A stretch of 42,380 nt of DNA from contig JAFGLU010000059.1 in assembly GCA_016927865.1 (NCBI GenBank), positions 1-42,380 on the forward strand, in the 5' to 3' direction. Below the pieces are notes generated by a model that made no database searches, had not been told where the DNA came from, and saw only the letters and a list, made by a program, of their open reading frames with translations. Positions 8,467 through 17,372 of this stretch are shown here, one piece after another. The translations under genes were made by a program, and so were the position numbers. How positions within the stretch are numbered: the stretch's first letter is position 1; each line of letters starts with the position of its first letter. This DNA is from Anaerolineaceae bacterium (GTDB lineage: Bacteria > Chloroflexota > Anaerolineae > Anaerolineales > Anaerolineaceae).

Positions 8467-9129
8467 CTACATTTCTGTTTGCAGCTCTTTGATACGCGGG
8501 TGGCCTTGATAGAAGCCGTGGTACTTTTCCGGCAGCAGCGCCGCGATGCGGCACATGATCTCGTCGGTATATTCCTTCATCTGTTCGCTGCGCCGGGCGG
8601 GATCCAGCGGTGGAAGCGTGTACGCCGGTCCAAATCGCACCGTGACCTTGGGGAAGCGCAGGGTGAGGGCTTTCTTGATCACCACCTCCGACCCGGCAAT
8701 GGCCACCGGCACAATGGGCACGCCCGCCTTGAGCGCCACCAGCACCGCCCCCGCCTTACCCTCTAGCAGTTGCGCGGTCTTGCTGCGCGTACCTTCGGGG
8801 GCAATACCCATCGCCAGTCCTTGCTTCAAGGCGTCCACTGCCGCGCGGATGGCGCCGAAGTCGGCGTTCTCGCGGTCCAGCCAGATGATGCCCCCCGTTT
8901 CCAAAAGCCACCGGAAAAGGGGGTATTTTTTATACTTATCCGCAACCAGCGCTGTCACATCGAGACGTTGACTGTTAATGAAGAGCAGCAGCGTGTCCAG
9001 GCGGCTCATGTGGTTGGTGGTGATCAACACCCCGCCCTCTTTGGGCAGGTATTCCATCCCCTCATAGGTGGTGCGGGTTAGCCCCCAGATGATTCTGCGA
9101 AGGATGCGCTGTAAGGTCTCGCGTTTCAT
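8467..9129 (-). CDS. plsC: 1-acyl-sn-glycerol-3-phosphate acyltransferase (PlsC family)
   Basis: A 220-residue acyltransferase. The catalytic HX4D motif is H40-MSRL-D45 (in TTNHMSRLD), and the glycerol-phosphate-binding motif is P111-EGTRS. Block IV is VPIVPVAIAGSE. It should add the second acyl chain to lysophosphatidic acid to give phosphatidic acid on the inner membrane face. The length is typical for short PlsC proteins. It is the last gene of the unit, 18 bases downstream of the DedA gene, with a strong terminator 27 bases after its stop. Other lysophospholipid acyltransferases share these motifs, so the exact acceptor is inferred. Confidence 0.88.
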   Translation of the reverse strand: MKRETLQRILRRIIWGLTRTTYEGMEYLPKEGGVLITTNHMSRLDTLLLFINSQRLDVTALVADKYKKYPLFRWLLETGGIIWLDRENADFGAIRAAVDALKQGLAMGIAPEGTRSKTAQLLEGKAGAVLVALKAGVPIVPVAIAGSEVVIKKALTLRFPKVTVRFGPAYTLPPLDPARRSEQMKEYTDEIMCRIAALLPEKYHGFYQGHPRIKELQTEM

Positions 9130-9147
9130 GCGCCTATCTGTGTCCTG

Positions 9148-9822
9148 TCACTCAACCGGCGTGGGAACGGGTTTCTCGCGGCGGCCCTTGATGTATTCGA
9201 ACACCGCGGGCAGCACCGAGATGACGATGATGGCGATGATGACCAGGGAGAAGTTCTCCTTGACCACCGGCAGATTGCCAAAGAAATGCCCGGCCATCAG
9301 GAACAACCCGGTCCATACAATGCCACCGATGATATTGTAGCTGATGAAGTAACCGTAATTCATCTTGCCAATACCGGCCACAAAGGGCGCGAAGGTGCGA
9401 ATGATGGGGATGAAGCGCGCCAGGAAGATGGTTTTTCCGCCGTGCTTCTGATAAAAAGCGTGTGTTCGATCAAGATGCTCTTTCTTCAAAAAGCGCGATT
9501 CTTGAGTAAACACTTTGGGGCCGATAAAATGGCCGATCCAATAATTCGCCGTATCGCCCAAAACTGCCGCCGTGGCTAAAAGGCCAAACAACACCCAGTT
9601 GTTCAAGCCGGTTTCTGGGTTAGCCGCCACTGCCCCCGCCGCAAAGAGCAGCGAGTCGCCGGGCAGGAAGGGCATGATCACCACGCCGGTCTCGATAAAA
9701 ATCACCACAAACAACACCAGGTAGGTCCAACCGCCGATCTGCCCAATGATAATAGGCAGCTGCTCGTCCATGTGCAGGACAAAATTTATAAACCACTCAA
9801 ATACGCTCTGAATTACTTCCAT
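9148..9822 (-). CDS. DedA-family membrane protein
   Basis: A 224-residue polytopic protein of the DedA/VTT family. Family marks are the acidic ETGVVIMPFLPGDSLLF re-entrant segment (about 44-60), GDTANYWIG (about 89-97) and FIPIIRTFAPFVAG (about 137-150), the last containing the conserved arginine. Hydrophobic segments lie at about 30-50, 70-90, 150-180 and 190-212. DedA proteins are linked to phospholipid scrambling or undecaprenyl-phosphate recycling and to membrane-potential upkeep. Which applies here is open. The start overlaps the end of the PrsW gene by 26 bases. Its place beside plsC agrees with a role in membrane lipid handling. Confidence 0.88.
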   Translation of the reverse strand: MEVIQSVFEWFINFVLHMDEQLPIIIGQIGGWTYLVLFVVIFIETGVVIMPFLPGDSLLFAAGAVAANPETGLNNWVLFGLLATAAVLGDTANYWIGHFIGPKVFTQESRFLKKEHLDRTHAFYQKHGGKTIFLARFIPIIRTFAPFVAGIGKMNYGYFISYNIIGGIVWTGLFLMAGHFFGNLPVVKENFSLVIIAIIVISVLPAVFEYIKGRREKPVPTPVE

Positions 9823-11101
9823 CCAACATTCCTTCTTCTTGAGGCTCGTTCGGCGCGTTCATGACCAGAGGCGCTGAAATATTCATCGATTCTACCACAG
9901 CCGAGCGGCTTAACTGACGGTTGGAGAACCACAACAGGAACAGAAAAACTGCGGTCAGCAGCACCATGAACACCACACTGGCTTTTCCCAGCAGGTTCAA
10001 CATCTGGTGCAAAAAGCTAGAGTCGGTAAAAAACTGGCCAAAACCTGAAAGCACGCTAAATGTATTCCAAACACCGTGCAGAAACACCACCCCCAGGTAG
10101 GTGCCAACCGCGCGCAGCCAGCCTCCACCGTTCCACACTTCGGCAATGGCCCGACCCATCAGCGCGGCCGTGGTCACGTGCAACGCGCCGGTCCCGGCCC
10201 TCCCGACGATCACCCCAAGCCAGCTTTCGGGGGCCACGCTGAGCGCCGAGAGCAGCGTCTCCTGCACGGCAAAGGCTCCACCGGCAATTGCCCCCAGCAC
10301 AAAACCTTCCGCCGGGGTAATCTTGCGACCACCCATGGCCCATACCGCCAGCGGCTTGAACAACTCTTCCAGCAGCGGCACCACTCCGGCTATGGCTACC
10401 AGTGCCACCAGCAAGATGATTGGATCGCTAAAAAATGGCGTGAACAATTCCTGCAGCGCTGCTGGGTCGTTTTGCAAGGTAAACAGCTCGCTTCTCAACT
10501 GTTCAAAGCGGCTTGCAATTTCAGGTTTGGTTCCCAAAAACACGCCAATAGCAATCAACCCGCCAATGCCGCCCACCAATTCCACAACCACGGTGAGAGG
10601 ATTGGAGACGAACAGAGCAAAGTTGAACGAGCCCCAGCCGCGCTGCGCCGTGCCGCCTCGCAACCCGCGCCGGCCGAACTCGACCAGCCACCACACTGGC
10701 AGGATGGTCGCCAGGGTGTGCAGGGGCAGGAACACCCACAGCGGCGCGCCGGATTTTTGGGCGGCAAAACCACCCGCCAGCGCCAGCGGCCACACCAACA
10801 TGAACAGGCTCGCCAACCGGAAGCGATCAGGCGCAGGGTTCTGCGCCCGGTCGGGAGCCAGCAAACGACGCACCGCCAGGATCAGCGAGGGCAGCGCCGC
10901 CAGCCCAAAGATACCCGAGACCCAGGCCAGCCCAAAAACCGAATTGAGCTGAGCATTGTCAAAAAACTCGCCTGCGCGGCTCAGGTAGATTCCCACGCCA
11001 AGCCCGGCCAGCACGCCAACAAACGCCAGGGCAAGACCAGTCCCGCTCATCATTGCCTGCAGCAGTGAGCCAACGTGCAGCCGGAAAGGAGGTCGCTCCA
11101 C
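9797..11101 (-). CDS. PrsW-family intramembrane metalloprotease (M82/CPBP-like)
   Basis: A 434-residue membrane protein with many hydrophobic segments. The three PrsW signature motifs are in order: E245-E-L-F-K249 (EExxK), F277-A-V-Q-E281 (FxxxE) and H342-G-V-W-N346 (HxxxN), plus H308 in a hydrophobic helix. In the family these glutamates and histidines bind the catalytic metal within the bilayer. Bacillus PrsW cleaves an anti-sigma factor, but no anti-sigma or sigma gene lies nearby, so the substrate here is unknown. The start is GTG at 11101, directly after the stop of the upstream fusion lipoprotein gene, with GGAG six bases before it. It overlaps the DedA gene by 26 bases. Confidence 0.88.
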   Translation of the reverse strand: MERPPFRLHVGSLLQAMMSGTGLALAFVGVLAGLGVGIYLSRAGEFFDNAQLNSVFGLAWVSGIFGLAALPSLILAVRRLLAPDRAQNPAPDRFRLASLFMLVWPLALAGGFAAQKSGAPLWVFLPLHTLATILPVWWLVEFGRRGLRGGTAQRGWGSFNFALFVSNPLTVVVELVGGIGGLIAIGVFLGTKPEIASRFEQLRSELFTLQNDPAALQELFTPFFSDPIILLVALVAIAGVVPLLEELFKPLAVWAMGGRKITPAEGFVLGAIAGGAFAVQETLLSALSVAPESWLGVIVGRAGTGALHVTTAALMGRAIAEVWNGGGWLRAVGTYLGVVFLHGVWNTFSVLSGFGQFFTDSSFLHQMLNLLGKASVVFMVLLTAVFLFLLWFSNRQLSRSAVVESMNISAPLVMNAPNEPQEEGMLDGSNSERI

Positions 11102-12298
11102 CTATTTCTCCGTGATCTTTACGCTGATGATGCGGTCTGCTTCGGGCAGTTCGGCCCCGCTGGCCGGATCGCGGGCCGTCAGGCTCTCCACAACCTCCAT
11201 GCCTTCCAGTACCTCGCCAAAAATGGTGTAGTTGCCATCCAGGTCCGGCGCGGCGTCATAGGTGATGAAGAACTGGCTGCCGTTGGTGTTGGCGCCGCTG
11301 TTGGCCATTGCCACCAGCCCGGCCCGGTCAAAGACCGCATCGGTGTTTTCGTTGTCAAACTGGTAACCAGGGCCGCCCATGCCCGAACCACTCGGGTCGC
11401 CACCCTGGGCAACGAACCCTGGCAGCACGCGGTGGAAGGGCACATCGTCAAACCAGCCCTGCCGGGCCAGGAAGACAAAGCTGTTCACCGCCAGGGGAGC
11501 CTGATCAGCATACAGGTTCAGCTTGACCTCGCCCTTGGTGGTTTTCATCACCACCGTGTACTGCCTGGCGGCATCAACAATCATCGGCGGGCACTGTTGG
11601 TACTGCTCATCGGCCAGGGCGAACAACTCGACCAGCGAAGAGAGTGTACCCAGCGACATGTCGCTCTGGTAGGGAATGTGGTTGATGAACAGGAAGGGCG
11701 TACCGGGGATTCCTACCGTCATGGCTAATTCCAGCGAGGCATCTACCCGTCCGCGGACGATGGGGTCGGCGAAATCGGCCTGATACTTGGTCGCATCCAG
11801 GTCCAGCTCGGCGGCTTTGGCTACCAGCCAGGTTTCCAGGTCAGCTTCAGTCAAGGCCATCCACTCGGCTTGAGCCGCAAAAATGGCATCAGACATTTCA
11901 TAGAACTTTTCCTGCTCCCCTGCTGCTTCAGCCCCATAGGCCATAATTAACGCATTGGGGTGCGAAGGAATGGGGAAATGGCGGAAAACAATACGCACAT
12001 CGTCCGGATACTTTTCGTGAAGCTGCGCCAGTACCGGCGCTATCATGGCGCAATAAGGGCACTGATAGTCGCTATATTCAATAAACGTGACTGCTGCTTC
12101 TTTATTCCCCAGAATATTGTCATTTTCATCCACGGCAGGAATGAGCGCCTGAACGGTCGGATCGGCCTGCGGAATGGTGCTGGTCACCATGCAGCCCTCC
12201 ATCGGGGGGCCGTCGGGGATGGCAGCTTTGCCGCCGGGCTGGCAAGCCGAAAGCACAAAGGCTGCCGCCAGCAATACCGGTAGAACTTTCTTAATCAT
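11102..12298 (-). CDS. Lipoprotein with DsbA-like thioredoxin domain fused to cyclophilin PPIase (intact copy)
   Basis: A 398-residue lipoprotein with lipobox LSAC (C19). Domain 1 (about 55-240) is DsbA/thioredoxin-4-like: active site C80-P-Y-C83 in SDYQCPYC and the cis-proline loop GIPGTP with P201. Domain 2 (about 245-398) is a cyclophilin peptidyl-prolyl isomerase: PFHR with catalytic R290, VLPGFVAQGGDPSG, and NGSQFFITY. Both active sites are complete, so one outer-face lipoprotein could carry out disulfide exchange and proline isomerisation. C36 and C236, outside CxxC, are kept in the tandem paralog and may form a structural disulfide. The ATG overlaps the paralog's stop as ATGA, and the PrsW gene follows with no gap. 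The partner for re-oxidation is not in the window. Confidence 0.9.
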   Translation of the reverse strand: MIKKVLPVLLAAAFVLSACQPGGKAAIPDGPPMEGCMVTSTIPQADPTVQALIPAVDENDNILGNKEAAVTFIEYSDYQCPYCAMIAPVLAQLHEKYPDDVRIVFRHFPIPSHPNALIMAYGAEAAGEQEKFYEMSDAIFAAQAEWMALTEADLETWLVAKAAELDLDATKYQADFADPIVRGRVDASLELAMTVGIPGTPFLFINHIPYQSDMSLGTLSSLVELFALADEQYQQCPPMIVDAARQYTVVMKTTKGEVKLNLYADQAPLAVNSFVFLARQGWFDDVPFHRVLPGFVAQGGDPSGSGMGGPGYQFDNENTDAVFDRAGLVAMANSGANTNGSQFFITYDAAPDLDGNYTIFGEVLEGMEVVESLTARDPASGAELPEADRIISVKITEK

Positions 12299-13560
12299 TG
12301 GTTTACCCTTTCATCAATTAAAACTTGGAGAATTGTATCACTTTCCGGCAGGTCTCCCATCAAAGATGGGTTGCGAGGGGTGAGTGCCGCAAGCACGTCC
12401 ATGCCCTCCAGCACCTGCCCAAAAATGGTGTACTGCCCATCCAATTCGGGCAAGGCAGTATAAGTAATGAAGAACTGGCTGCCATTTCCGTTGGCCCCGG
12501 CGCTGGCCATGGCCAAACGCCCGGGCTGGTCAAAGCGCAGCGCACCAATTTCATCGCGAAAAGCATAACCAGGGGTGCCCAGCCCCGTGCCGCTGGGATC
12601 GCCCGATTGAGCCAACTGCCCCGGCAGCACCTTATGGAAGGGCGAACCGTCATACCATCCCTGGCGCGCCAAAAACACGAAGTTATTCACCGCCAGCGGC
12701 GCCGCCTGGGCATCCAGTAGCAAAATCACCTCGCCGCGCGTAGTTCGCAGCGTGGCCAGGTACTGGTTTTGAGGGTCGATGACAAAGGGCGGGCAGGTGT
12801 CAAACTGAATGCGGTCCAGGTTGGCCAAATCCACCAGCATTTGCAAGCTACCCGAATCACGCGGGCCGGTGTAAATGCGCCCGTTGATGAGCAGGAATGG
12901 CATGGTCGGAACACCTATATTCAGGCCTTGCTGCTGTGCGTCCAGGGCAGCTTGCTGCACCTGCGCGTCCTGCAAATCAGTTATGAGCTGGGCGGCGTCC
13001 AGGCCAACGGCGGGGACATTTTCCAGCAACCAGGCTTCAAACTCCTCGGGGGTTAATCCCGACCACTGCTCCTGCCGGGGAATGAGCAGATGGTGCAGCG
13101 GCCAGAAGCGCTCTTGCTTTCCGGCTGCGATGAGGGCCGCCGTTGCCAGCACAGACTTATCGTTAGCTGGGATGGGAAACGGGCGGTAAACCCAGCGAAT
13201 TTTATCCTGGTTGCGCGCCACCAGCCCGGTCAGCACTGTATCCAGCACGGCCACCGCGGGCGACTGCACGTCGCCGTATTCCAGAAAGGTGATGGGCGCC
13301 GAGTCAGAACCCAGAACATAGTCGCCGGGCTGCCCGGCAGGTGGGAAGAGCGTATTCCCTTCTGGGGTAGCGGTTGGGTCAGTGCTGACTACCAGACATT
13401 CCATCGTCTCGGGTAGAGCCGTAGGCAAAATGAGTGGAGTTACCGAAGGCTCCAGCGTGGGGGTAGGGACAGGCGTCGGAGCCGGGGCCGCGCAAGCTGC
13501 CAGCCAACCCGCAGCAAGAATCCAGGCTGTCGCGACCCTTACGGCAGCGTCAGGCTTCAT
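12295..13560 (-). CDS. Tandem paralog of the DsbA-cyclophilin lipoprotein, active sites degenerate
   Basis: A 421-residue lipoprotein (lipobox LAAC, C23, then a Pro/Thr-rich linker to about 50). It aligns along its full length with the next gene: TFLEYGDVQ equals TFIEYSDYQ, and the cyclophilin half shares VNNFVFLARQGWYD and NGSQFFITY. The CPYC active site is S100-P-A-V103, so both redox cysteines are gone, although the cis-proline P221 remains. In the cyclophilin half the catalytic arginine is K310 (PFHK) and the following VLPGF is VLPGQ. C55 and C256, matching C36 and C236 of the intact copy, are kept. The frame is intact and the gene is translationally coupled (ATGA) to tmk and to the intact copy. 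It is therefore probably a binding or scaffold protein, not an enzyme. Confidence 0.88.
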   Translation of the reverse strand: MKPDAAVRVATAWILAAGWLAACAAPAPTPVPTPTLEPSVTPLILPTALPETMECLVVSTDPTATPEGNTLFPPAGQPGDYVLGSDSAPITFLEYGDVQSPAVAVLDTVLTGLVARNQDKIRWVYRPFPIPANDKSVLATAALIAAGKQERFWPLHHLLIPRQEQWSGLTPEEFEAWLLENVPAVGLDAAQLITDLQDAQVQQAALDAQQQGLNIGVPTMPFLLINGRIYTGPRDSGSLQMLVDLANLDRIQFDTCPPFVIDPQNQYLATLRTTRGEVILLLDAQAAPLAVNNFVFLARQGWYDGSPFHKVLPGQLAQSGDPSGTGLGTPGYAFRDEIGALRFDQPGRLAMASAGANGNGSQFFITYTALPELDGQYTIFGQVLEGMDVLAALTPRNPSLMGDLPESDTILQVLIDERVNQ

Positions 13561-14174
13561 TTACCTGCCAGCCGCTCGGTCAAAATTTGGCGCAAATCCG
13601 ATTGCACTGCATCCGGCGGGCGGCCGGCATCCACCACCACCCAACGCTCGGGGTTATTTCGCACCAATTCAAAGTAACCCTCACGCACCCGGCGGTGAAA
13701 CTCCAACGCATAGGCGTCCAGGCGGTTCCATTCCGACCCTTTCTGCTTGCGCCGCAGGCCAGCTTCCACGTCCACGTCCAATAGAATGGTCAGGTCGGGT
13801 TGCAGGCCGCCGGTGGCAAAGTTTATCAGTTTGCGCAGCATCTCTAAATCATAGCGGTGTCCATACCCTTGATACGCCAGGGTCGAGTCGGCGTAGCGAT
13901 CGCACAGCACCAGCTTTCCTGCCTCCGATGCTGGACGGATCAACTCCTCCACATGCTGGGCGCGCGAAGCCTGGAAGAGTAAAATCTCGGTGCGCGGGTG
14001 CATGGCGGTGTTCTCCAGGTTGGTGATCACCGCGCGAATCTGGTCGCTGATGGGGGTGCCACCCGGCTCGCGCGTGCAAAGCACCTCGTGCCCACCCTCG
14101 CGCAAGAATTCAGCCAACCGCCTGATCTGAGTGGTCTTTCCACTGCCTTCCGGCCCTTCAAAAGTGATGAACAT
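13557..14174 (-). CDS. tmk: Thymidylate kinase
   Basis: A 205-residue dTMP kinase converting dTMP to dTDP with ATP. Walker A is GPEGSGKTT (7-15), REPGG is at 36-40, the DRY motif is D92-R-Y94 followed by S, and the LID segment carries RKQKGSEWNRLD. Length and motif spacing are typical. The frame is open back to 14237, but family members start at MFITFEG, so I use the ATG at 14174. That leaves 19 bases after the ATPase stop, though no strong ribosome site is seen there. The stop overlaps the next start as ATGA. Its place among lipoprotein and membrane genes probably reflects shared growth-related expression. Confidence 0.93.
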   Translation of the reverse strand: MFITFEGPEGSGKTTQIRRLAEFLREGGHEVLCTREPGGTPISDQIRAVITNLENTAMHPRTEILLFQASRAQHVEELIRPASEAGKLVLCDRYADSTLAYQGYGHRYDLEMLRKLINFATGGLQPDLTILLDVDVEAGLRRKQKGSEWNRLDAYALEFHRRVREGYFELVRNNPERWVVVDAGRPPDAVQSDLRQILTERLAGK

Positions 14175-14193
14175 ATTGCGATGCCGGAAGGGC

Positions 14194-15831
14194 TTACTCG
14201 CGGTAAATCCGCACCCGCCGGTTGGGCTCCTTTCCATAGGATTGCGAAATCAACTCGGCCTGGCGAGCCATCTCATGCTGCATGCGCCGAATAGCTGCCG
14301 AAGCCGGGGCTAAATCAACATAGCGCTCACCGCTCATCACCATTTGAATGGCAGCCTGAGTCTGCAGGTTGAACTCGTCCCAATTATCCGGCAAGGCTGG
14401 AGAGGTAGACATGTTGAATAACTCGGCCAGCAATTGTTCAATCTGATTGTTGGTATTGGCCCGCAGGACATAAATGGGCATGCCACGCTGTTCGGCTTCC
14501 AGGATGGTTTGCTCACGGCTGCGATAATAGGCCCGCAAAGTGATCAGCGCGTCGGCCTCGCCGATCTCGCGCACGACGATGGCCGGCACGCCCAGGCGCT
14601 TGGCGCTCTGCATCAAGCGGTTGCGCGCCACACCGTAAGGGAAAACCCGCACGGGCTGGAGAGTCTGGCCACGGGAAGGCTCCACCGAAGTTTGGGGTTC
14701 GCCATTCATGCGCACAGGGCCGCTGGCAGGGCGCTGCTCCGGCGAGGCGGCAAAGCGCTCGCCAACCGAAGTCCCCGTGCCGCGCCGAAAACCCTGTTGC
14801 TGGTTATAACCCACGCTGTGCACCATCGGCGGGGGAGCCTGTTCAACGACCACCTCTCCCTCCGGGCTGCGGAAGCGAACCTCGGGCTGCAAGGGCATAC
14901 TGCGTACCAGCGCGTCCACCGAGGCAGCCACGTCTGGATGGACGGCCATCCGGTCTCGCTCGATAATCTCGATCAAAACATCGAACGTGGGGGGCGCGCG
15001 CCGCTCCAACACGGTTTTCTGAGTGCCGCGCCGCCGGGCTTCCTCGTCCGAAAGCGTCACGGCTTGAATCCCACCTACCAGGTCCGACAGCGTTGGGTTG
15101 AGCAGCAAGTTTTCCAGCGTGCGCCCATGAGCCGTGCCAACGAGCTGCACGCCACGCTCGGCAATCGTGCGCGCGGCAACCGCTTCCAGTTCGCGACCAA
15201 TCTCGTCGATGACAATGACTTCGGGGTTGTGGTTTTCCACCGCCTCAATCATCACCTCATGCTGCAGCGAAGGCTTGGCCACCTGCATGCGGCGGGCCTT
15301 TCCCACCGCCGGATGGGGCACATCGCCGTCGCCGCCAATTTCGTTCGAGGTATCAACGATCACCACGCGTTTCTGCTCCGCCAAAATGCGAGCCGCCTCG
15401 CGCAGCATGGTAGTCTTGCCAATACCCGGCTTGCCCAGAATCAGCAAACTCTTGCCCGACTCGATCAAGTCTTGGATGATATCAACCGTGCCATACACCG
15501 CTCGGCCCACGCGGCAGGTAAGCCCAACCACGGTGCCCCGGCGATTGCGAATGCCAGAGATGCGGTGCAGGGTGCGTTCAAGTCCGGCGCGGTTATCGGC
15601 GTCAAAATCACCAATGCGTTCGATCACAAAATCAAGGTCGTCGCGGCTAACTTCCTCGTCCGTTAGCTCCACATCACCCGAGACAAAACGGGCAAAGGGC
15701 CGCCGGCCCAGGTCAGCCACAATTTCCAGCAGTTGATCGCTGTTGTTCCTTTGGTTGACGGCCTCGGCAATCTTTGCGGGCAGCACGCCCATCAAAACAT
15801 GCAAATCGTCCGTAATTCGTCGTTGAGACAT
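14194..15831 (-). CDS. R3H-domain AAA ATPase (Ycf45/SpoIIIAA-like)
   Basis: A 545-residue protein. The N-terminal 100 residues are of unknown fold. A P-loop ATPase follows with Walker [10 protein letters not shown] (133-141) and Walker B VIVIDE (205-210), then GTAHG as a sensor-like segment. This resembles the secretion-ATPase-like SpoIIIAA and the chloroplast Ycf45 group. A low-complexity Gln/Pro-rich linker spans about 330-395. A C-terminal R3H nucleic-acid-binding domain ends with the R515-xxx-H519 motif. Its job is not established in the family; binding of single-stranded nucleic acid is predicted from R3H. It lies 18 bases after the GNAT-like gene and 19 before tmk, in the middle of the ten-gene unit. 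Confidence 0.85.
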
Positions 15832-15849
15832 AAAGGTTTTCTTGCCCCT

Positions 15850-16758
15850 TTAATTTTTAGAAGTTGTTGAATTCCGCACCAGTGGAGCGGTGGCTTCGGG
15901 CGAATACACCTCGCGCAGCACCTTGCGACCGACCGCCATATAGGAGCGCTGCCCCAAAGCCAGATGCTTGACCAAGAGTGCCTGCCGCGGCGCGGCGTTT
16001 CCCTCCAGCCGCCCCAAGGAGGTTTCCAGCCAGGCCTGGTATGAACGCGCCGCCACATAAATGGGGCGCACCGGCGAGACAGGCTGCTGAGCCAGCAAAG
16101 CCCCCAGCAGTTCCGGCACGTTCTTCACCGCCGGATGCACCACCGGTTGAAGATAAATCCCCTGCGGGCCATAAACCGCATCGACATAAGCCAGCATGTC
16201 CCCATCCTGGCGGTAAATGAGCCGCGGAGCCGCGCCTGGCACATACGGCTCGGCTGCCTGAACCAGCGGCGGAACCAGAGAATGGTACAGGTTACGCTGT
16301 GTCAATTCTTCCATCGGCTCGGCCAGCCTCCAGGTCCCTTGCTCACCACCCGCTGCGACCGTGGCGGGGAACTGCCAGATGGTTTGCCAGCCGTACACGG
16401 TGAAACCAATCCGTCGCAGCAGTTCCAGCATCGGGCTGAGTTCATCCACTTCGGCCAGCACGTTGCCCGCCCCCCAGGCGCCCGCCTGGGTCACCAAACC
16501 TTCCACCAGGGCCAGCATGCCCGGGTTGTCGGCCTCGTCGTCTGGCGAGAGAAAAGCCATGTGCGCCGAACGCTCCCCGGGCGTATAGTGCACCTGCCCA
16601 ATGACCGCCGAATCGCGGCGCGCCGGGCACACCGCCGTGAACGTCTCCCAGCCCGGGTCAAGCTGCCAGAGCAGCGCCAGCGGCCCCACCGGGCTGCCGC
16701 GCGTCAAAGCTAAAGCGCTGTCGGTGCACAGTACGCGGCGCCGGTAGCGGTAAAGCAT
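15850..16758 (-). CDS. GNAT-like acyltransferase-fold protein, function unknown
   Basis: A 302-residue protein without a clear family name. Residues 45-125 look like half of an N-acetyltransferase fold: strands AVIGQVHY and AHMAFLSP, a helix ALVEGLVTQAGAWGAGNVLAEV, and then LELLRRIGFTVYGWQTIW, which resembles the FYxxxGF-type end of GNAT domains. Residues 150-300 may form a second related half (TQRNLYHSLVPPLVQ; APRQALLVKHLALG). No canonical acetyl-CoA loop (R/QxxGxG/A) is present, so catalysis is doubtful. It is 32 bases downstream of pdxT and 18 bases upstream of the R3H ATPase, and thus firmly inside the unit. The assignment rests on secondary-structure style only. Confidence 0.6.
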   Translation of the reverse strand: MLYRYRRRVLCTDSALALTRGSPVGPLALLWQLDPGWETFTAVCPARRDSAVIGQVHYTPGERSAHMAFLSPDDEADNPGMLALVEGLVTQAGAWGAGNVLAEVDELSPMLELLRRIGFTVYGWQTIWQFPATVAAGGEQGTWRLAEPMEELTQRNLYHSLVPPLVQAAEPYVPGAAPRLIYRQDGDMLAYVDAVYGPQGIYLQPVVHPAVKNVPELLGALLAQQPVSPVRPIYVAARSYQAWLETSLGRLEGNAAPRQALLVKHLALGQRSYMAVGRKVLREVYSPEATAPLVRNSTTSKN

Positions 16759-16790
16759 GATCAGATCGTGCCAGGCAAACGGTCGAACGT

Positions 16791-17372
16791 CTATTTCGTC
16801 ATCTCCAAAAAGTAACGATGGAAACGGTCGTCAGAAGTCAACTCGGGGTGAAACACCGTGGCCAGCAAACGGCCTTCGCGCGCCGCCACAATGCGCCCAT
16901 CTTCCAACTGCGCCAGCGGCCGCGCCGCGCCATGCACGGCTTCGATCAACGGCGCTCGGATGAACACCGCCCGAAAGGGCTGGGCCTGGCTGCCGTTCGA
17001 CCCGCCAAAATCCACCCGTAAATTCGTTTCAAAGCTGTCCACTTGCCTTCCAAAGGCATTGCGCCGGATGCTGATGTCCATCAGCCCCAAAATGGGCTGA
17101 TCCAGGCCAATATCTTTTGCCAGGAAAATGGCTCCGGCACACGTGCCCCACAGCGCCTTGTGGCGTCCAAACTCACGCAGCGGCTCGAGCAGACCGTAGG
17201 CTACCGCCAGCTTGCCAATGGTGGTCGACTCTCCGCCGGGGATGATCAAGCCGTCCAGCCCGTCCAATTGGGCGGGCAGACGCACCTGAACCACCTCGGC
17301 TCCCAGCCGCTCCAGCAGCACCTGATGCTCGAGGAAGGCGCCTTGCAGGGCCAGAACACCGATACGACTCAT
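16791..17372 (-). CDS. pdxT: Pyridoxal 5'-phosphate synthase glutaminase subunit PdxT
   Basis: A 193-residue class I glutaminase that supplies ammonia to PdxS. The nucleophile elbow is GTCAGA (Cys at about 97), the second motif is IPGGEST, and the catalytic His-Glu pair is in VFHPEL near the C-terminus. Length and motifs are standard. The start lies four bases after the pdxS stop, the usual order in bacteria with the deoxyxylulose-phosphate-independent pathway. The complex makes pyridoxal phosphate from ribose 5-phosphate, glyceraldehyde 3-phosphate and glutamine. Confidence 0.95.
   Translation of the reverse strand: MSRIGVLALQGAFLEHQVLLERLGAEVVQVRLPAQLDGLDGLIIPGGESTTIGKLAVAYGLLEPLREFGRHKALWGTCAGAIFLAKDIGLDQPILGLMDISIRRNAFGRQVDSFETNLRVDFGGSNGSQAQPFRAVFIRAPLIEAVHGAARPLAQLEDGRIVAAREGRLLATVFHPELTSDDRFHRYFLEMTK

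Follow-up and report, generated by a model that had tools for sequence, protein, structure and literature searches.

A DsbA–cyclophilin lipoprotein without redox cysteines beside its catalytic paralogue in an Anaerolineaceae genome, and the variable active sites of its family

The DsbA-like/Thioredoxin_4 oxidoreductases (PF01323, PF13462) and the cyclophilins (PF00160; for example Mycobacterium tuberculosis PpiA, 1w74, and the domains of spliceosomal PPIL1 and PPWD1) are the closest described relatives of two adjacent genes, here called copy A and copy B, in an Anaerolineaceae genome (assembly GCA_016927865.1, contig JAFGLU010000059.1, positions 1 to 42,380, a stretch referred to below as the window). 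The product of A resembles the oxidoreductases in its exported DsbA-type thioredoxin domain, CPYC motif and cis-proline, with 3gyk, 3f4t/r/s, 4n30 and 4gxz as the nearest solved DsbA structures by sequence, and it shares the full cyclophilin fold with a complete pocket. Both genes differ from either family in that the cyclophilin forms the C-terminal part of a DsbA fusion anchored to the membrane, the two domains sharing one lipoprotein; B in addition lacks the catalytic cysteines and has lysine for the cyclophilin arginine and glutamine at the Phe60 position, and relatives carry predicted selenocysteine (Sec) or a moved cysteine pair. NCBIfam NF041057, a 247-position model of the Rcas_1661 thioredoxin-like (seleno)lipoprotein with its Cys or Sec forms, matches the DsbA halves of A and B in part, but the match stops before the cyclophilin half and the scores (A 71.0 bits, B 61.6 bits) fall below the cut-off of 190. 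DsbA-like UxxC selenoproteins (PF01323) are covered in a 2026 review of the prokaryotic selenoproteome (PMC13188914) and have the same UxxC site as the Sec relatives described below, in which the Sec domain is instead fused to a cyclophilin on a lipoprotein. The words 'cyclophilin' and 'peptidyl' are absent from the main text of that review and from term look-ups in two further selenoprotein papers (PMC12013277, PMC9312934), and by title and start of abstract we found no description of a DsbA–cyclophilin fusion or its Sec form in the open-access literature searched. The Sec fusion is possibly an undescribed selenoprotein architecture.

The initial annotation of the window described A and B as neighbours each encoding a lipobox, a DsbA-like domain and a cyclophilin domain, and both are indeed complete, open genes on the minus strand for which Pfam gives the same architecture. 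The reading that we favour, with about even confidence, is that B is a selected, non-redox, client-binding paralogue of a membrane-anchored DsbA–cyclophilin foldase. Within the genus, probably Anaerolinea, the two copies were compared in four genomes, namely the window genome (G000; 147 contigs, 84.5% complete), G001, G002 and G004.

12295–13560, minus strand: copy B gene, a DsbA-like and cyclophilin lipoprotein without redox cysteines (open frame, Pfam, intact orthologues in G001, G002 and G004, AlphaFold2 (AF2) model)
12829–13329, minus strand: Thioredoxin_4/DsbA-like domain of B, residues 78–244 (Pfam PF13462, E 5.6e-13)
13252–13263, minus strand: SPAV of B, residues 100–103, replacing the catalytic CxxC (AAAS, APAS and TEAS in the three orthologues)
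12379–12753, minus strand: cyclophilin domain of B, residues 270–394
12631–12633, minus strand: Lys310 of B at the cyclophilin catalytic Arg position (T, R and R in the orthologues)
12616–12618, minus strand: Gln315 of B at the Phe60-equivalent pocket position (sequence alignment)
13396–13398, minus strand: Cys55 of B, which pairs with Cys256 as a second, probably structural, cysteine pair (pair present in 118/129 fusions)
12793–12795, minus strand: Cys256 of B, partner of Cys55
11102–12298, minus strand: copy A gene, with the architecture of B and both active sites, CPYC and R290 (open frame, Pfam)
11627–12124, minus strand: DsbA-like domain of A, residues 59–224 (Pfam PF13462, E 8e-22)
12050–12061, minus strand: CPYC catalytic motif of A, residues 80–83 (sequence)
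11120–11554, minus strand: cyclophilin domain of A, residues 249–393 (Pfam PF00160, E 2.5e-42)
11429–11431, minus strand: Arg290 of A, the cyclophilin catalytic Arg (sequence alignment)

The two genes overlap by 4 nt (12295–12298) and their products are 45% identical across 364 residues. Thioredoxin_4/DSBA and Pro_isomerase matches exceed the Pfam gathering cut-offs in both; with PF13462 the scores are 78.6 bits for A and 49.9 bits for B (cut-off 23.2), which places both within the profile family, and with PF01323 B is barely over the cut-off (26.5 vs 25.6 bits). The lipoboxes, read by eye, are LSAC19 in A and LAAC23 in B. The residues annotated at the active sites (CPYC and R290 in A; SPAV, K310 and VLPGQ in B) are all present, as is the second cysteine pair (C36/C236 in A, C55/C256 in B). 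B has only three cysteines, those at the lipobox (C23), 55 and 256. As SPAV is neither CxxC nor UxxC, B is by its sequence a member of the DsbA-like fold family and not of the oxidoreductase enzyme class, whereas A has the catalytic motif. The DsbA-type cis-proline position holds proline in A, in B and in every aligned row of the family table described below, the cis state of this residue presumably carrying over from the DsbA family. Both proteins also have the cyclophilin profile and fold; at the position of CypA Arg55, A has the catalytic arginine and B does not. The claim that both active sites of B are erased is therefore borne out for the DsbA site and overstated for the cyclophilin, in which six of the eight scored pocket positions are kept and only the Arg and the Phe60 equivalent are altered. 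These two changes (Arg to Lys, Phe to Gln) probably leave the cyclophilin of the window B catalytically weak as well. Elsewhere the window genome has a separate cyclophilin and a separate DsbA-like match.

Comparison within the genus separates the two losses. Both genes have open frames in all four genomes; the catalytic cysteine pair is absent from all four B genes, which read SPAV (G000), AAAS (G001), APAS (G002) and TEAS (G004) at this position, while CPYC is present in all four A genes. The cyclophilin Arg position in B is by contrast K, T, R and R in the same order, the Phe60 position is Q, Y, Y and L, and the N333 position is S in three of four; the equivalents of Q63, A101, Q111, F113 and L122 are kept in all four B genes, and the pocket is full in all four A genes. 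Because the Arg remains in two of the four B genes and the cysteine pair in none, redox loss preceded Arg loss in the B clade, and the lysine of the window B is, on this distribution, a later change absent from two of its three orthologues. The joint loss of two sites suggested by the initial annotation is thus not what the genus displays. An error of sequencing or assembly behind the missing cysteines is unlikely, the pair being absent also from B in the three other genomes.

In a careful 50-row tree the A set and the B set each form one clade with 100/100 support and identical internal order, although some inner branches are weak (the placement of G000 within B has 98/47), and because the two clades share this order A and B were most likely inherited side by side. 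The same tree does not settle whether A and B are sisters; a single A+B clade is not rejected by the approximately unbiased test (p 0.97), and in a quick 129-row tree B groups among other lost forms, which may be long-branch pull.

Several observations indicate that B has been maintained. Frames are intact in the three other B genomes, where frameshift or decay would have spoken against a functional B, and this at pairwise identities of 51–61% across the four genomes. A ratio of nonsynonymous to synonymous rates (omega) of 1 is rejected in 6/6 pairs of B genes (2dlnL 192–330), which shows that B is under purifying selection, and nonsynonymous divergence (dN) in B, at 0.28–0.44, is little higher than the 0.25–0.33 of A. 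B retains 17–19 of 20 conserved DsbA-domain columns, the catalytic pair excluded, and 47–49 of 52 conserved cyclophilin columns. The residue preceding the cis-proline is Met in 4/4 B proteins and Thr in 4/4 A proteins, a fixed substitution that suggests a re-tuned groove in B and not decay. The cyclophilin is the slower domain in both copies (mean pairwise identity 67% vs 53% in B and 73% vs 56% in A). An AF2 model of B has a predicted local distance difference test score (pLDDT) of 90.6 and a predicted template modelling score (pTM) of 0.81; one Foldseek match to this model, 8j07, is a loose alignment with a root mean square deviation of 21.8. The non-catalytic, fold-retaining protein first proposed is upheld as an intact, conserved derivative free of redox chemistry, although 'non-catalytic' may go too far for a cyclophilin that still has its Arg in two of four B proteins.

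A wider view comes from a table of 129 fusion proteins, its rows being matches to B in 112 genomes plus six named loci; the table is not a random sample, and only part of the 315 fusion-bearing genomes of the order were read. Of 134 rows extracted, five rows from loci L119, L120, L122 and L123 were dropped, their DNA being identical to that of G002, G272, G206 and G016, and twenty further loci were read and left out of the counts. Positions 80 and 83 (numbering of A) are Cys/Cys in 69 rows and Sec/Cys in 28; 18 rows have lost C80 and keep C83 together with Cys76, and 14 have lost the site, 13 of them having neither cysteine and one having CPYS. Cys76 is present in 18/18 rows keeping C83 without C or U at 80 and in 0/98 rows with C or U at 80, and the residue before the cis-proline is Val in 17/18 of these proteins (including a separate case, G046), as against Thr in 55/69 Cys rows and 27/28 Sec rows. 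Examples are loci L053:7035-8267 and L049 of family f12 and L064 (G046, family f11), with the sequence EYCDFQSQGC in which the Cys lies four residues upstream; C76/C83 may be a moved redox pair. On the quick tree, many branches of which are weak, the catalytic versus non-catalytic state requires a minimum of 9 changes, full loss 7, Sec 13, the moved pair 2 and the pocket 11. Most of the table (118/129) retains the second pair, C36/C236, which is not retained in 11 loci read from other families of the class, where cysteine-pair calls are alignment-dependent, as are pocket calls in very diverged rows (e.g. G020, G032, G036).

Erasure of an active site is therefore not special to the window pair; it recurs through the whole family. 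Genus g126 of family f12 holds Sec, Cys and no-chemistry forms together (UPAC, UPGC, CAGC, DPPS and DPAS; loci L096, L094, L107, L108, L209 and L113), and its pocket changes (Q to E, A to K, L to Y) are present while G275 still has UPGC, so that here the pocket changed before redox loss. As the order differs, redox first in the B clade and pocket first in g126, a single event that removed the two sites together is rejected. The pocket is lost in 10/14 redox-lost rows versus 14/115 others, but the tree provides only four independent pairs, for which a sign test is far from significant (median p 1); for this reason we do not claim coupling of the two losses. One copy has both active sites in 11/11 two-copy genomes, and the other copy has lost at least one site in 8/11 (G000, G001, G002, G004, G017, G018, G035 and G318). 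Among genomes with one fusion, that is one found at the thresholds used, which diverged second copies could escape, 20/101 carry a defective fusion and 18 more the moved-pair form; active-site loss thus needs no sister. The tandem second copies of G035 (L051) and G318 (L216) are the reverse of B, keeping a UPYC redox site and having lost the isomerase pocket. VKOR was found in 63/80 genomes with no visible tie to redox state (no formal test); of the four genus genomes, G001 and G004 have it, while G002 and G000 gave no match.

The Sec assignment rests on an in-frame UGA at position 80 in 28/129 rows (L041, L042, L043, the second copy of L051, L054, L057, L068 and 21 more), followed by a 7-bp hairpin at +19 to +39 with the loop CGTGNT in 27/28. 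At least six of the seven Watson–Crick pairs form in 26/28 Sec genes, compared with 3/69 Cys, 0/18 moved-pair and 0/14 lost genes. In the 27 aligned Sec genes (L127, with a different hairpin, was excluded) 97.4% of the cells are paired, with four of the pairs varying on both strands of the stem, a level reached by 0/500 shuffles. The folding energy of this putative selenocysteine insertion sequence (SECIS) is lower in the 28 Sec genes than in the 69 Cys genes (mean z −0.76 vs −0.15, p 0.003 in a one-sided rank test, with p 0.06 for raw energy). This shift is small, and the position-specific pairing test gives a far clearer result. Rfam at gathering thresholds returned only two tRNAs across the four sources scanned. 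SelB is over the cut-off in 24/27 Sec-form genomes and 69/85 others (93/112 overall), and because it is over the cut-off whatever the form it is compatible with Sec but does not discriminate; dependence of the Cys form on the Sec machinery was rejected on the same ground. With both the UGA and a SECIS, and SelB compatible, the relatives with UGA at position 80 are predicted selenoproteins. A Cys gene of G054 (L038:3570-4922) has an intact-looking SECIS hairpin with the loop CGTGCT, which is likely a fossil of a recent Sec-to-Cys change. UGA occurs at the same position in class families f22 (one locus) and f23 (two loci), there without that hairpin in the corresponding place.

The fusion occupies a recurrent gene slot, of which the window contains the following flanking genes.

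13557–14237, minus strand: tmk (dTMP kinase), which lies upstream in the conserved slot and overlaps B by 4 nt (13557–13560)
9797–11101, minus strand: PrsW-like intramembrane protease, encoded downstream in the conserved slot
9148–9822, minus strand: DedA-family protein of the same gene string

The start of the prsW reading frame (11101) adjoins the stop of A. The complete string, pdxT, a GNAT-like gene, an R3H/SpoIIIAA ATPase, tmk, the fusion, prsW, dedA and plsC (window 8467–17372; the pdxT and GNAT names are our own reading and the others come from profile matches), is found whole or largely so in most loci read from the family of the window genome. The tandem of the window, B ahead of A with tmk and prsW on either side, recurs in G001 and G004, whereas in G002 A is in the slot beside prsW and B stands alone and intact elsewhere on the contig that carries A, at a distance of about 288 kb, between genes resembling a TerC-type protein and a P-type ATPase (names read from the first residues). 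Of the 114 loci with at least 700 nt readable downstream, 80 have the start of a prsW homologue no more than 900 nt beyond the fusion, 95 are followed by prsW or, in its absence, by dedA, and 19 show neither gene; the arrangement spans several families of the order. In 5/7 f8 loci and 6/6 g126 loci dedA follows without prsW. Matches to B at E <= 1e-55 occur in 315 of 400 sampled genomes of the order, which is probably Anaerolineales. In a phylum sample of 400, the matches listed that cover both halves come only from this order and from class families f16, f20, f22 and f23, and those listed from outside the class are mainly to the cyclophilin half. At L062, L064 and L069 a short cyclophilin-only reading frame adjoins the fusion where other genomes have a second fusion, and L081:6122-7642, L085:6393-7688 and L089:6635-8023 are single reading frames of 431–506 residues that each match cyclophilin twice and probably encode double-cyclophilin proteins.

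How then might B act? B keeps its lipid anchor, its structural cysteine pair, its DsbA cis-proline loop and most of the cyclophilin groove. Most likely it acts on the outer side of the membrane, where it would bind exported proteins at unfolded or proline-containing stretches and hold them without disulfide chemistry, while A stays the working enzyme. It is because these parts are retained that we take client binding to be the most likely role; the holdase action, the outer-face location and any benefit of B are likewise what we infer. ERp27 of the eukaryotic endoplasmic reticulum (ER) is a non-catalytic chaperone of the PDI family that binds clients with a thioredoxin fold lacking redox cysteines. 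Such proteins offer an analogy of working only; their domain order and their setting in the ER differ, and the likeness drawn here is one of fold. Several points weigh against our reading: saturation of synonymous divergence (dS) leaves omega without a point estimate, evolution is somewhat faster in the B clade than in A, no solved DsbA structure matches the DsbA half of the B model among the VIA-align and Foldseek matches listed (cyclophilin rows), and only four genomes are comparable, as the fifth congeneric genome, G003 (61% complete), yielded no fusion. Moreover, with the catalytic Arg still in place in two of four, isomerase activity may persist in part of the B proteins. It is possible, if on the unlikely side, that B is redox-dead only, with the cyclophilin as the working part, the DsbA-like domain serving to bind or position substrate and the lysine of the window copy lowering activity locally without abolishing it; the Arg of the G002 and G004 proteins, the five other pocket equivalents kept in all four and the slower evolution of the cyclophilin, which B shares with A, would all suit this, notwithstanding the Lys or Thr in the window and G001, the variable Phe60 position (Q/Y/Y/L) and the Ser at N333 in three of four.

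The initial annotation had B acting with its sister, and B as a partner, decoy or regulator of A, for example in a heterodimer, would be in keeping with B directly preceding A in three of four congeneric genomes, with the 4-nt overlap in the window and with a fully equipped copy in every two-copy genome. We consider it unlikely, as both persist about 288 kb apart in G002 and a fifth or so of the one-fusion genomes (20/101) carry a defective fusion that has no sister. An adaptor of the neighbouring PrsW-type protease, by which B or the fusion would capture misfolded exported proteins to hand over or report, would fit the frequent proximity of prsW (80/114, or 95/114 with dedA, in several families) and a fold retained without its chemistry; it is very unlikely, for it draws on gene order, G002 keeps A and not B beside prsW, and many loci have dedA without prsW or neither gene. 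Slow decay of a superfluous duplicate would account for the loss of both sites in the window and for the variability of the lost positions (SPAV, AAAS, APAS, TEAS; K, T, R, R), yet it is strongly disfavoured and highly improbable given open frames in four genomes at such divergence, rejection of omega = 1 in every pair, the conserved scaffold columns, a new fixed residue before the cis-proline and retention of B at a separate site in G002; a decaying pseudogene is rejected by the same tests of frame, omega and scaffold. Returning to B as a client binder, a broader and rather doubtful extension is that one slot across the order houses a fusion with optional chemistry (a Cys/Sec switch, a moved pair or none, with the isomerase pocket lost too in several lines), whose selected function would be client capture or hand-over at the membrane, possibly to PrsW, with redox and isomerase activities as add-ons and B as the pure form.

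The family provides a natural series within a single gene family, in which one two-domain foldase comes in Sec, Cys, moved-pair and chemistry-free forms. This makes testable both what favours or disfavours selenocysteine at a particular site and how useful a foldase fold is without catalysis. The A and B pair of the genus lets an active copy be compared with a redox-dead one inside a single cell, and in the latter the shape of the protein may matter as much as its chemistry.

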